Assembly: GCA_903901015.1 (NCBI GenBank)
Contig: CAIUPH010000069.1
Coordinates: forward strand, 1 to 44,056
Direction of reading: 5' to 3'
Source of the DNA: Candidatus Bathyarchaeota archaeon
Lineage (GTDB): Archaea > Thermoproteota > Bathyarchaeia > Bathyarchaeales > Bathycorpusculaceae
Length of the DNA stretch: 44,056 nt
The position numbers were made by a program, and so were the translations under genes. Below the pieces are notes generated by a model that saw only the letters and a list, made by a program, of their open reading frames with translations, made no database searches and was not told where the DNA came from. Positions within the stretch are counted from its first letter, which is position 1. Each line of letters opens with the position of its first letter. Shown piece by piece: positions 27,668-32,300 of this stretch.

Positions 27668-28036
27668 ATGAGAATCCTTCCTATTCTTGGCGGTGTTGCG
27701 GCGACGGTTTTGTTCTTTTTTGCAGTGATTTTTGCGCTTGCCTCTTCTTACAGTGGGCTTACTGCTCAGGCGGCGCAGGGCAGACTCATCACCAGCGCAA
27801 TCCTCTTCATAGTGGGCTTATCAGTAATCGTTGGCATCTACTATACCACCCGCAAACCCAAAACGGTTATTCAGCGTTTGGAGGTTTCAGGCGAAATGAA
27901 GGCGGCGCAGATTAAGTGCCCCAACTGCGGCGGATTAATCAACGCTGACCAAATCAAAATTACCGAGGGCGTTCCATACGTTAAGTGTCCGTACTGCGGT
28001 ACCACGTTTGAGGTTACTGAGGAACCGAAATGGTAA
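27668..28036 (+). CDS. Small membrane protein with zinc ribbon
   Basis: A 122-residue protein with two transmembrane helices (about 5-28 and 40-60) and a cytoplasmic-side zinc ribbon formed by C84, C87, C107 and C110 (KCPNCGG...VKCPYCG). Its stop overlaps the start of the DUF2207-like gene (ATGGTAA, 7 bases), so translation is probably coupled and the two proteins may work together. It is the first gene of a three-gene block ending with a radical SAM enzyme. Its own function is unknown; the ribbon could bind protein partners or metal. A TATA-like element precedes it at the right distance. Confidence 0.7.
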   Translation: MRILPILGGVAATVLFFFAVIFALASSYSGLTAQAAQGRLITSAILFIVGLSVIVGIYYTTRKPKTVIQRLEVSGEMKAAQIKCPNCGGLINADQIKITEGVPYVKCPYCGTTFEVTEEPKW

Positions 28037-29655
28037 ACCGCTCAGCCCTGTTTGCTGCGTTGCTTGCTTTGTGCATCGTTGTGGCTTTAGCGGCAAGCGT
28101 TGCCAGCGCCCAGAGCTTGGTTTACAGCGTGGACCATGAGTGGGCGCAGGTCTTCATTAACCAGGATGGCACCATCGACTTAACCTACAACATAACCCTA
28201 ACGGTGACTTCGGGCACCCTGCACTCTTATGATGCTGGCCAACCGAAGCAGGATTTCACCATTGGCTCAGCCGTTGACCAGTACGGCAATCAACTTCACA
28301 CCTACAAGTACACATCTGATGTGGCATCAGTGGACTTCAAGACGCCCCTAACTGCGGGGCAAAGCATCTGGTATACGATAATAACCAACGTTGCAGGCAT
28401 GATAAGCAACGACACAGATAACCCCGGCAACTTTGGCATGCAGTTCATCCCTCAGTGGGACCCTAATGTGCCGATCAGTGACGTTCGGGTGCAGATTGTT
28501 CTGCCGCCGGGCGTTGCAACAAGCGATGTAAAAACCACCGCGAACTTCTACAACGGCACCTCAACCGTTGCGGGTCAGCTGGCGGTTTACTGGGAAAAAC
28601 CCGCCATACAAGCCAACGAACAGTTCCAGGTGGGCGTTTCTTTCCCAGCCAAATACATGCCAGGTTATAATCCTCCTTCAGGCGGAGGCGGACTCGACCT
28701 TGGCGGATTTGGAACAATCCTCGGGGTTGTCGGGGTGTTGTTTGCGCTGCTCGTTTTCGGGTTCATCATTTTTAAGGTTCGCAAGAGCACATATGCGTCG
28801 CCGAAAGTCAGCATGGAATCTTTGGGGGTCAAACGCGGCTTAACCGCCGTCGAAGCCTCATACCTGCTCGACTTGAAGCCGACGCAGATTGTCACCGAAA
28901 TCCTCTACAGCCTCCTCCAGAAACGAGCGGTTTGGGCGCAGGAAACCAAACCCGCGCTCAAACTAAAATTGCTGGCGCCCTACGAGAACAAAACAGGCAC
29001 CAAAGACAACCCGCTACGTTACTACGAGATTGACTTCCTAAACTCACTCAAAGCAGACGGGTCACTGGACGAAGAAAAACTCGCCCACACAATCATGTTC
29101 CTTCGCGACACAACCGAGCAGAAGCTGCAGGGTTACAGCCGCAAAGACACAGTGGATTACTATCGGAAGGTTGCGGCTGATGCGTGGGCGCAGGTAGAGA
29201 AGGCGGGCACCGTGGACTTGGCGGCGAACGCTTACGATGAACAACTGCTCTGGCTGCTTCTTGACCCCAACCAGCGCACCCGCACGGAAACCGTGTTCCG
29301 CGGCGGGATCATTCAGCCTAATCCATTGTGGTTCTGGTGGTGGTACGGCTACGGCGCATACCATCCAAACCCCACTTACGCTCCGAACGTTAACGTGCCT
29401 ACGCAGTCGGGCAAACCGCCAGCGATTCCAGGACCAGACTTCGCCAACACCATAGCCACATCAGTGGAGAAAACCTCGAACAGCGTAGTTGTCAACATAG
29501 AGAAATTCGCTAATGCCATCGTTCCGCCGCCCCCCAAAGTCTCCCACGACCCAGCCCATCCAAAAGCCGATTGTGTCTGCGCGTGTGCGACATGTGCCTG
29601 CGCGTGCGCTTGCGTTTCATGCGCTTGCGCTTGTGCAGGTGGAGGAGGACGCTAA
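28030..29655 (+). CDS. DUF2207-like membrane protein with Cys-rich C-terminal tail
   Basis: A 541-residue protein. It has a signal peptide (residues 1-27, ending ASVASAQS), an extracytoplasmic beta domain (30-210) of the DUF2207 type, a Gly-rich hinge and a transmembrane helix (226-249). The cytoplasmic part includes a winged-helix-like segment (LTAVEASYLLDLKPTQIVTEILYSLLQKRAVWAQ). A Trp/Tyr/Pro-rich stretch (355-430) and a Pro-rich linker come next. The last 27 residues hold ten cysteines at 515, 517, 519, 522, 524, 526, 528, 531, 533 and 535, mostly as alternating Cys-Ala, then GGGGR. DUF2207 proteins often end in low-complexity Gly/Ser tails, so the Cys tail is special. The next gene, a radical SAM/SPASM enzyme, begins at the base after the stop. 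The tail would be cytosolic and so accessible to that enzyme (inference). Confidence 0.75.
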   Translation: MVNRSALFAALLALCIVVALAASVASAQSLVYSVDHEWAQVFINQDGTIDLTYNITLTVTSGTLHSYDAGQPKQDFTIGSAVDQYGNQLHTYKYTSDVASVDFKTPLTAGQSIWYTIITNVAGMISNDTDNPGNFGMQFIPQWDPNVPISDVRVQIVLPPGVATSDVKTTANFYNGTSTVAGQLAVYWEKPAIQANEQFQVGVSFPAKYMPGYNPPSGGGGLDLGGFGTILGVVGVLFALLVFGFIIFKVRKSTYASPKVSMESLGVKRGLTAVEASYLLDLKPTQIVTEILYSLLQKRAVWAQETKPALKLKLLAPYENKTGTKDNPLRYYEIDFLNSLKADGSLDEEKLAHTIMFLRDTTEQKLQGYSRKDTVDYYRKVAADAWAQVEKAGTVDLAANAYDEQLLWLLLDPNQRTRTETVFRGGIIQPNPLWFWWWYGYGAYHPNPTYAPNVNVPTQSGKPPAIPGPDFANTIATSVEKTSNSVVVNIEKFANAIVPPPPKVSHDPAHPKADCVCACATCACACACVSCACACAGGGGR

Positions 29656-31002
29656 ATGAGTTTTCTAAAGAAAATCGTGGGTAAACAAAAGGTGCCCGTG
29701 GGACGTTTCATGTACCGCGGTGCGGACAAGTTTGCTGGGATGTCGCTGCAACTGCGCATTGAGCCGTCGGGGCAGGGCGTCATGGTTATCAACGCCAACA
29801 ACGTGCTGCACCTAAACCACACGGCAGCCGCCTACGCATTCTACTTCATGCAGGGCTTACCCCAAAAAGACGCCATATCAAAAATCCACCGAATGTACCA
29901 TGTGAACGCCGACACAGCCAAAACCGACTACGAAAAACTCGTCTACACCATTAGCACACTGGCGCAGACCGAAAAAATAGACCCCGTCACATACTTGGAG
30001 ATTCAAAAAGAGGAGCCCTTCAGCCACCAGTACTCAGCGCCCCTACGCATGGATATGGCTTTGACGTTTAGGTGCCAGAACGACTGCGTCCACTGCTACG
30101 CTGGAGGACCACATGAAACGCCTGAGCTTTCGACTGAGCAGTGGAAAAAAGTAATTGATAAACTCAGCGAAATCGGCGTTTTCATCTTAACCTTCACGGG
30201 CGGCGAGCCGACGCTGCGGGAGGATTTGCCTGAACTGTTAATTTACGCTCAAACCGTGGGTATGGTAACGGGACTCATCAGTAACGGGCGAAACCTCAAA
30301 GACAAAGCCTACGTCGAGGTGCTGGAGAAGTCAGGCTTAGACTTCGTTCAGGTAACCCTTGAATCCCACAAACCAGCATTCCACGACAAAATGACGGGTG
30401 CGAAGGGCAGCTGGAAAGAAACCGTCGCGGGAATCCAGAACGCGGTGCAATCCAAAATCTACGTTTCAACCAATACCACGCTTAGCAAAAACAACTCAGC
30501 CGACTTCTTAACCACCATCGACTACATCAAGGGATTGGGTGTGGATGCGTTTGGCTGCAACAGCCTCATCTACTCGGGCAGGGCACCCGACGCAAGCCAG
30601 GAATTCGCATTATCCATCGAAGAGTTGAACATGCTGTTGCCGAAAATCCGCGACAAAGCCCACATGCTCGGCTTAAAGTTCCTCTGGTACACGCCCACAC
30701 AGTACTGCCAATTTGACCCCGTCCAGTTGGGCTTGGGAGTCAAATCCTGCACCGCCGCCATGATAAACGCGTGTGTTGGACCCAACGGCGACGTTTACCC
30801 CTGCCAAAGCTACTTTGAAAGCCTCGGAAACATCCTCACCGAACCGTGGCAGAAGATTTGGCACCACCCACTAGCAGAAAAACTGCGCAGCCGAAGCTAC
30901 GTGGAAGAAAAATGCAAAGATTGCACGCAGCTGCAGGTTTGCGGCGGCGGATGCCCCCTGGAACTCCAGAATAAAACCCACGAGTGCACTCAGACAGGAT
31001 AA
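29656..31002 (+). CDS. Radical SAM/SPASM protein with N-terminal PqqD-like (RRE) domain
   Basis: A 448-residue enzyme. Residues 40-103 resemble PqqD, the peptide-recognition element of RiPP maturases (VLHLNHTAAAYAFYFMQGLPQKDAISKIHRMYHV). The radical SAM core starts at 130 with C140-x3-C144-x2-C147 and has FTGGEPTLRED near 180-190 and a VTLESHKPAFHDKM strand. The C-terminal SPASM region holds CTAAMINACVGPNGDVYPC and EKCKDCTQLQVCGGGCP, enough Cys for two auxiliary Fe-S clusters. Such enzymes install thioether, C-C or other bonds in peptides. The start codon directly follows the stop of the Cys-tailed protein gene, so that tail is the obvious candidate substrate. It could also be a heme-d1- or AdoMet-peptide enzyme with a distant substrate, but the context argues otherwise. 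Confidence 0.85.
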   Translation: MSFLKKIVGKQKVPVGRFMYRGADKFAGMSLQLRIEPSGQGVMVINANNVLHLNHTAAAYAFYFMQGLPQKDAISKIHRMYHVNADTAKTDYEKLVYTISTLAQTEKIDPVTYLEIQKEEPFSHQYSAPLRMDMALTFRCQNDCVHCYAGGPHETPELSTEQWKKVIDKLSEIGVFILTFTGGEPTLREDLPELLIYAQTVGMVTGLISNGRNLKDKAYVEVLEKSGLDFVQVTLESHKPAFHDKMTGAKGSWKETVAGIQNAVQSKIYVSTNTTLSKNNSADFLTTIDYIKGLGVDAFGCNSLIYSGRAPDASQEFALSIEELNMLLPKIRDKAHMLGLKFLWYTPTQYCQFDPVQLGLGVKSCTAAMINACVGPNGDVYPCQSYFESLGNILTEPWQKIWHHPLAEKLRSRSYVEEKCKDCTQLQVCGGGCPLELQNKTHECTQTG

Positions 31003-31064
31003 TTTATCTTTAGCAAGCCGCCATTCTCTTGCAAGGCAGCAACGCCGTTTGTGAGTTCACAGCT

Positions 31065-32300
31065 ATGGCTTCAACAGAAAAATGCAGGCTCATCGTTTTC
31101 GACGTGGAAGGAGTACTAATTCCTAAGAACCGCTTCATCTTTGAAGTGGGCAAAACCTTAGGGTTCACAAGACTCATCAGGCTTCTATTCTTAGGTTTTT
31201 TGTATGAAGCAGGCATTTTGAAGCTACAAACAGCCTTAAAACACATTTTCAAGGACTTAAAAGGAATCGAACTTGAAACGTTAATGGACATTTTCAGCAA
31301 AATTCCAGCTACCCCCTACCTGCACAGCTTATTCTGCCAGCTAAAATCCCGCAACTGCAAAATCGCTCTCATAAGCTCAGGTTTACCCACAGTCATCGTT
31401 GAGAAATTAGCAACGTCATTGGGCGCAGACTACGCATTCGGAGTCGAAGTTAAAACCAAAGATGGAAAATTAACGGGTGAAATCAGCGGCGACGCCATCA
31501 CAAAAAACGGAAAACGCAAAATTCTCTGCGAAATCTTAGACAAGGAAAAATTGGCACCCAGCGACTGCATCATCGTAGCTGACGACCGAAACAACCGCTG
31601 CATCTTCATGCCTGGAATGCTGAAAATCGGTTTTAACCCCGACGTTTTCCTGCGCGTTAAAGCTGACAGAGTAGTAAACGGCAAACTCACAGGCATCCTG
31701 CCCATCATCGATGGAAAACCGCATAAACGCTCTTTTCCCTCAGCCAACGATTTAGTGCGAGAAGATATCCATGCCTCAGGATTCTTCATGCCCCTCATCG
31801 CAGCATTAATTGGGGTTCCGATTGTGGCGTCAATAATCATTTTCATCGCCATCGTCTACACGGTGTCTGAGCTTTCAAGGCTTGAGGGACGCGAACTGCC
31901 ATTGGTTTCAGCGATTACGCGGCACGCGGCTTCCCAGTCTGAACTGTATGGGTTTGCTGCGGCACCAATCTACTTTGCCACGGGAATAGTGGCGACGCTA
32001 CTTCTGTTTCCATTTCACGCAGCTGGAGCAGCCATCGCCATGTTCTGCTTCGGTGACAGCGCAGCTTCGCTTTTCGGCGGATTAATCTCCACTTCTCTGC
32101 CTTTTAACAAGGGCAAAACTTGGGAGGGCTCGTTGGCAGGTTTCTTCTTCGCGTTTCTGGCGGGTTCATTCTTTGTGTCGCCGTGGTTGGCTTTGGCTGG
32201 AGCAGCGATTGCCATGACCGTTGAGGTTTTGCCGCTGCCCATAAACGATAACGTACTGATACCTGTGATTACGGGTGCCGCATTAACGCTGCTTATCTGA
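31065..32300 (+). CDS. HAD phosphatase fused to a CTP-dependent polyprenol/diacylglycerol-type kinase
   Basis: A 411-residue protein from the ATG at 31065; a TTG at 31029 would add 12 poorly supported residues. Residues 1-220 are a HAD-superfamily phosphatase of the SerB/ThrH kind: DVEGVLIPK (with Glu in place of the second Asp, as in ThrH), ISSG, a downstream Lys, and VADDRNN. Residues 245-411 are a multi-pass membrane domain like dolichol kinase / DGK1 / phytol kinase (SEC59 family): a VSELSRLEGRELP start, FCFGDSAASLFGG, KTWEGSLAGF and PLPINDNVLIPV. One half removes and the other adds phosphate on a lipid-like alcohol, suggesting polyprenol or isoprenoid alcohol recycling. Substrates are inferred. 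It begins 62 bases after the radical SAM gene. Confidence 0.78.
   Translation: MASTEKCRLIVFDVEGVLIPKNRFIFEVGKTLGFTRLIRLLFLGFLYEAGILKLQTALKHIFKDLKGIELETLMDIFSKIPATPYLHSLFCQLKSRNCKIALISSGLPTVIVEKLATSLGADYAFGVEVKTKDGKLTGEISGDAITKNGKRKILCEILDKEKLAPSDCIIVADDRNNRCIFMPGMLKIGFNPDVFLRVKADRVVNGKLTGILPIIDGKPHKRSFPSANDLVREDIHASGFFMPLIAALIGVPIVASIIIFIAIVYTVSELSRLEGRELPLVSAITRHAASQSELYGFAAAPIYFATGIVATLLLFPFHAAGAAIAMFCFGDSAASLFGGLISTSLPFNKGKTWEGSLAGFFFAFLAGSFFVSPWLALAGAAIAMTVEVLPLPINDNVLIPVITGAALTLLI

Follow-up and report, generated by a model that had tools for sequence, protein, structure and literature searches.

We analyzed a 44,056-nucleotide stretch of contig CAIUPH010000069.1 from a Candidatus Bathyarchaeota archaeon (assembly GCA_903901015.1; hereafter the window) and found three packed genes at positions 27668–31002 that probably form a cassette for the maturation of a protein tail. 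In this cassette, a radical S-adenosylmethionine (SAM)/SPASM enzyme with an N-terminal RiPP recognition element (RRE; RiPP, ribosomally synthesized and post-translationally modified peptide) would act on a full-size membrane protein and modify its Cys-rich cytosolic tail, with thioether cross-links as the most likely product. The anatomy of the locus, the co-occurrence of tail and enzyme, their coupled presence and absence, the invariance of the tail and the matching of enzyme and tail types were observed directly; we infer that the tail is the substrate of the enzyme.

The first two genes overlap by 7 nt (28030–28036) and the third follows the second with a gap of 0 nt (Table 1), as an earlier note made from the sequence alone had described. 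The second gene encodes the tail-bearing protein, with a signal peptide or transmembrane (TM) segment (residues 4–21), an extracytoplasmic β domain (31–206), a TM helix (225–250), a cytosolic helical domain (273–422) and then the Cys tail. The TM helix is followed by KVRK, and residues 503–541 are disordered in the AlphaFold2 (AF2) model, i.e., the tail is predicted to face the cytosol, in line with the earlier note. The protein is present in a single copy in its own genome and ends in DCVCACATCACACACVSCACACAGGGGR, with the ten cysteines noted before. The underlying pattern C-A-C-A-C-x-x-C-A-C-A-C occurred once in the window and in none of 100 dinucleotide shuffles.

We assessed tail conservation in 20 orthologues that had been found via the enzyme and not via the tail. 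Residues C515–A536 were invariant except for position 521, and one orthologue was short of one Cys-Ala unit. Invariance was as high for the flanking residues (Ala, and Val-Ser or Ala-Gly) as for the cysteines, and the remaining membrane protein had a mean identity of 34–73%, depending on the region. The wobble bases of the Cys, Ala, Val and Ser codons varied freely, with Ser drawn from both codon families. Because the bases vary while the residues are strictly kept, we ruled out a chance or codon-repeat origin; the alignment argues for strong selection on the tail. Upstream of the tail, archaeal and bacterial proteins share a PGxxFA...V..N...F... segment, where the AF2 model places helices at residues 468–485 and 490–497.

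The membrane protein had been called DUF2207-like, which held as remote homology and not as family membership by Pfam. Its PF09972 score of 16 bits is below the gathering cut-off of 24.4 bits; by hhalign, the tail proteins are clearly remote relatives of canonical DUF2207 (97.7%, E 2.5e-12). A Foldseek search returned the β fold of ribophorin-I and of M1-peptidase N-domains and gave no functional information.

The enzyme matched PF04055 (84 bits) and PF13186 (42 bits), which together with its CxxxCxxC motif confirms the radical SAM/SPASM identity proposed before. The motif was invariant in 42 relatives, and the SPASM cysteines were invariant or at least 90% conserved, with the exception of C444. 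In the AF2 model, which has a predicted local distance difference test score (pLDDT) of 92, four strands and then three helices precede the radical SAM barrel. These first ~105 residues, for which a PqqD-type domain had been suggested, are assigned as an RRE from fold and profile comparisons: a profile of the region from 18 relatives retrieved two lasso-peptide RRE proteins from the PDB, TfuB1 (E 5.6e-7) and TbiB1 (E 0.0017), and PF05402 (PqqD) was matched by 16 of the 18 relatives, the window enzyme alone giving no match. The best PDB relative by sequence was SkfB (E 3e-24), which was also closest by Foldseek, followed by SuiB and CteB, all of them RRE-bearing peptide maturases. Known NCBIfam systems (ACGX, GeoRSP, SkfB, HxsC and others) were rejected as matches since all scored far under cut-off, the best equivalog reaching 145 of the 500 bits required. 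A second RRE-like radical SAM protein in this genome (contig C14) turned out to be a distinct enzyme with no Cys tail nearby. A defence system was rejected, since the PADLOC viperin match spans the radical SAM core only.

Tail and enzyme occurred together almost strictly, as judged from the following genome comparisons. The tail was encoded directly upstream in all 20 enzyme orthologues. Among 232 genomes of the window's class, at least 70% complete, 66 encoded the tail, and 65 of these had the enzyme above background; in the 66th, a run of N (an assembly gap) lies inside the adjacent enzyme gene. None of the 166 tail-less genomes of the class encoded the enzyme; three further matches of 205–211 bits, whose alignments begin only at the radical SAM core, were assigned to the background. 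The corresponding Fisher value (2e-57) ignores shared ancestry and is hence not readable as a probability. Within the window's genus, both genes were present in 14 of 31 genomes and neither in 17, and these 17 genomes miss the entire tail protein, not merely its tail.

We then scanned GTDB r220 by the tail DNA pattern. Among the matches listed, the enzyme was adjacent at 114 of 129 tail loci. The earlier note had asked whether the enzyme gene is always adjacent; the other 15 genomes all had a full or near-full enzyme elsewhere (386–656 bits). Tail and enzyme sit at clearly separate loci in some Asgard and Chloroflexota genomes, and two gene orders were found, with the enzyme upstream or downstream of the tail gene. 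In a sample of 150 Anaerolineae genomes, 21 had the enzyme above 500 bits; the tail with the window's Cys-Ala-Cys (CAC) code was found in 18 of these, and in two further ones the enzyme lies near a contig end. Close enzyme relatives beside unrelated proteins were not found in the samples searched. On both counts, the proposal of the earlier note withstands the refuting conditions set there. In the first enzyme family, the finer subdivision of tails likewise tracked the enzyme tree, with 6 changes compared with 34.8 after shuffling.

A sister enzyme (310–372 bits) in Anaerolineae adjoins another DUF2207-type protein, which ends in ACHSACHSACHSACVHDACHSACV..., i.e., in CHSA repeats. This tail was found in 19 of the 150 genomes, including all 18 with the sister enzyme; in the 19th, locus inspection revealed an adjacent sister enzyme too. 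No genome in the sample mixed CAC and CHSA types of tail and enzyme. The type of enzyme therefore follows the type of tail, with no overlap between the two pairings. The CHSA-tail protein passes PF09972 (31 bits) and is related to the window-type tail proteins by hhalign (99.8%). It scored 38.3 bits against TIGR04222, under the cut-off of 43 bits. The parallel to TIGR04222 drawn by the earlier note thus finds weak support in the sequence of the sister protein. The window membrane protein gave no TIGR04222 match, and two of 34 relatives matched this family at E up to 0.01. The CHSA loci of Table 1 also encode a ~390-aa coiled-coil-like protein and a 163-aa membrane zinc-ribbon protein.

The earlier note had regarded the pairing as archaeal. 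The GTDB scan ruled out this restriction, and the pairing is conserved across both domains of life. Among the matches listed, tails were found in Chloroflexota, Bathyarchaeia, other Thermoproteota, Methanocella and Theionarchaea, in Asgard genomes labelled Hodar-, Heimdall-, Hermod-, Sigyn- and Loki-, and in Clostridia, Planctomycetota, Armatimonadota, Acidobacteriota, Aminicenantes, Fermentibacterota and others. Most carriers are metagenome-assembled genomes. Cultured Anaerolineae are among the carriers, and named strains, i.e., Ornatilinea apprima P3M-1, Bellilinea caldifistulae GOMI-1, Levilinea saccharolytica KIBI-1, Leptolinea sp. HRD-7 and Hungatella hathewayi WAL-18680, carry the pair, which argues against a binning artefact. 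In the gut bacterium H. hathewayi (locus L292, 3539–6063, minus strand), the pair has a Clostridia-type tail, CACACAGCACACACAGGGRAGCSQKDFY, with the enzyme upstream, and sits between argininosuccinate lyase-like and synthase-like genes. A viral origin was rejected, as CxC matches in IMG/VR were other proteins or frames and not DUF2207-type tails. Six IMG/VR contigs (L278, L281–L284 and L290) encode phage proteins of ~130–160 aa with alternating-Cys ends (..NCNCACTYNC..CACACFVCACACW), unrelated to the tail proteins; no radical SAM gene was noticed at L283, the only phage CxC locus inspected.

Further genes accompany the pair. The first window gene, described before as a membrane zinc ribbon, matched TIGR02098 (MJ0042_CXXC) with 26 bits, over the cut-off. 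Of 82 tail loci with sufficient DNA on the upstream side, 59 have a homologue immediately before the tail gene, and homologues end in [T/E]EEPKW in archaea and bacteria alike. In the window, the KW-stop codons of this gene contain the ATG of the next one; the motif is kept even at non-overlapping loci. Many Chloroflexota, Planctomycetota and Armatimonadota encode, next to the active enzyme, another SPASM-like protein in which all three cluster cysteines are missing and which is a probable non-catalytic partner (pseudo-enzyme). In several loci of Chloroflexota and Asgard archaea, the gene after the enzyme encodes a class I SAM methyltransferase with the motif ..QxxWTxxxRxxxY..; it adjoins the enzyme even where the tail gene sits elsewhere. 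No short free precursor peptide is encoded directly beside the window enzyme, whose neighbours are the membrane protein gene and a larger open reading frame (31029–32300). No DUF692 (MNIO) match was found in the three window genes.

Table 1. Coordinates of the proposed tail maturation cassette in the window and of related genes at other loci (L, our locus handles).
Feature	Sequence	Position	Strand	Details
Small membrane protein, N-terminal TM region and C-terminal zinc ribbon (CPNC...CPYC), end TEEPKW	Window	27668–28036	+	122 aa; TIGR02098
DUF2207-like membrane protein	Window	28030–29655	+	541 aa; AF2 model pLDDT 81; remote DUF2207 homology by hhalign
Candidate leader-equivalent segment, residues 466–503, PGxxFA...V..N...F...	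Window	29425–29538	+	Conserved motif, predicted helical
Cys tail CVCACATCACACACVSCACACAGGGGR, proposed substrate	Window	29572–29652	+	Residue invariance in 20 orthologues
RRE-radical SAM/SPASM enzyme, proposed tail maturase	Window	29656–31002	+	448 aa; PF04055, PF13186
RRE (PqqD-like) domain of enzyme, residues about 14–104	Window	29695–29967	+	AF2 fold, profile matches
CxxxCxxC radical SAM cluster motif, C140/C144/C147	Window	30073–30096	+	Invariant, 42 relatives
SPASM domain, auxiliary-cluster C365, C383, C420, C423, C429, C433, C444	Window	30748–30987	+	Sequence, PF13186
Second SPASM-like protein beside active enzyme	L036	3344–4522	+	
Second SPASM-like protein beside active enzyme	L045	4275–5450	+	
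Second SPASM-like protein beside active enzyme	L057	3677–5041	-	
Second SPASM-like protein beside active enzyme	L101	3782–5143	+	
Class I methyltransferase	L036	4477–5262	+	
Class I methyltransferase	L081	4721–5449	-	
Class I methyltransferase	L293	3501–4289	-	
Class I methyltransferase	L294	3837–4556	-	
CHSA-type tail protein	L247	5013–6716	-	
CHSA-type tail protein	L249	2879–4798	+	
CHSA-type tail protein	L250	2310–4061	+	
CHSA-type tail protein	L254	5925–7796	-	
CHSA-type tail protein	L296	4203–6035	-	

We propose the following route of maturation. The membrane protein would display its flexible tail of alternating Cys in the cytosol, where the RRE of the enzyme may bind the conserved PGxxFA...F segment that precedes the tail. 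The enzyme would then move along the tail and modify several Cys in place by radical SAM/SPASM chemistry, most likely forming intramolecular thioether cross-links of the sactionine or ranthionine type. The outcome would be a rigid or metal-binding tail that stays on the membrane protein, with the small zinc-ribbon membrane protein as a putative partner. That the tail stays attached is suggested by its invariance and by the fact that no recurrent protease or exporter was noticed in the loci inspected, for which no systematic count was made. It may serve in metal or redox handling at the membrane. The earlier proposal that the enzyme acts on the tail of a large membrane protein is supported by the pairing; we infer the modification and its chemistry.

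Order of domains (RRE, radical SAM, SPASM), fold, relatedness to SkfB and an adjoining Cys-rich candidate substrate all resemble the maturases SkfB, CteB and SuiB of sactipeptides and ranthipeptides. However, their precursors are short and variable, whereas the candidate substrate here forms the C-terminal end of a membrane protein of ~540 residues and hardly varies between the two domains of life. QhpD, a SPASM enzyme that makes several thioethers in QhpC (PMC8172795), likewise acts on a real protein subunit and not on a small free peptide. In contrast to the system described here, it forms methylene cross-links from Cys to Asp or Glu in the soluble γ subunit of quinohemoprotein amine dehydrogenase, which has no membrane tail or alternating CxC. 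Ruminococcin C contains thioethers from Cys to Ala, Asn, Lys and Arg (PMC8172795), so thioether formation is plausible for a tail in which Cys and Ala alternate.

TIGR04222 membrane proteins carry Cys tails beside MNIO (DUF692) enzymes; these Ser/Gly-rich tails with interspersed Cys were placed in the periplasm, and one third of the TIGR04222 genomes have no MNIO (PMC12452194). In both systems, a peptide-modifying enzyme thus adjoins a membrane protein whose C-terminus is a low-complexity Cys tail. Unlike there, the tail here is predicted to be cytosolic, the pairing is almost strict and the adjoining enzyme, a radical SAM/SPASM protein, is unrelated to MNIO. Topology analysis of DUF2207 proteins places their N-terminus outside the cell and their Gly/Ser-rich C-terminus inside it (PMC10457818), consistent with a cytosolic tail here. 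DUF2207 proteins with such tails, e.g. Streptococcus mutans SMU.243, share the extracellular N-domain, the TM segment and a cytosolic C-part with a low-complexity tail, and the family is homologous by hhalign. However, these tails have no Cys code, and the window protein fails the Pfam cut-off. No NCBIfam equivalog (release 20) covers the enzyme–tail pair and no account of it was found in the open-access papers searched. We base the claim of an undescribed pairing on these two sources; a description published behind a subscription or as a preprint could have escaped them.

Some points weigh against a tail modified by this enzyme. The GTDB sample is biased to the tail pattern used for the scan, and the genome counts take shared ancestry into account only through the patchy distribution inside the window's genus. 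In one Anaerolineae genome (G253), the enzyme gene has no tail gene beside it. Moreover, the set of SPASM cysteines is reduced in Clostridial enzymes (L097), where the C-terminal ones are missing; the chemistry may therefore differ between branches.

The tail might instead stay unmodified, as a metallothionein-like metal or Fe-S binder that anchors the enzyme to the membrane or supplies it with metal or electrons, with the enzyme's substrate elsewhere. Alternating CxC and the zinc-ribbon partner suggest metal binding, and phage contigs encode CxC-rich proteins, with no radical SAM gene noticed at the one such locus inspected. We consider this unlikely, however, given a peptide-binding RRE, nearest structures that are peptide maturases, flanking residues as invariant as the Cys and two enzyme subfamilies that match two different tail codes; moreover, no other candidate substrate recurred in the loci inspected. 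The membrane protein could also be a giant RiPP precursor, whose tail is modified and then released, for instance as a bacteriocin or signal peptide. Such a role would suit a maturase resembling SkfB and a C-terminal tail that looks like a core and follows a leader-like helix. Yet the tail hardly changes even between very distant carriers, which sets it apart from most bacteriocin cores, it is predicted to face the cytosol, and no recurring protease or exporter was noticed in the loci inspected, where no systematic count was made; we regard release of the tail as quite improbable. Hitch-hiking of functionally unrelated genes in one operon is scarcely credible, as it is contradicted by genome-level co-occurrence even when the genes are unlinked, by two gene orders, by joint absence within one genus and by spread over many phyla.

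Maturation of a tail that remains on its membrane protein would have wider implications. The chances are about even that tail-fixed modified proteins form an undescribed class in bacteria and archaea, in which members of a DUF2207/TIGR04222-like superfamily carry an almost invariant C-terminal Cys code and dedicated RRE-radical SAM/SPASM subfamilies, one for each code (CAC or CHSA), turn it into a cross-linked or metal-binding tail that is never released. Some lineages would use a catalytically dead radical SAM protein as a helper, and the same platform would have recruited MNIO elsewhere. The two-code pairs offer material for the question of how a radical enzyme handles ten or more near-identical Cys sites, and the cultured carriers O. 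apprima, B. caldifistulae, Levilinea saccharolytica and Leptolinea sp. HRD-7 make the pairing directly testable. If the proposal is true, DUF2207-like proteins gain a testable biochemical handle, and RRE-guided radical SAM chemistry would also finish full-size membrane proteins, not only small natural products, a type of finishing that would be conserved in many phyla, among them Chloroflexota, Clostridia, Bathyarchaeia and Asgard archaea.

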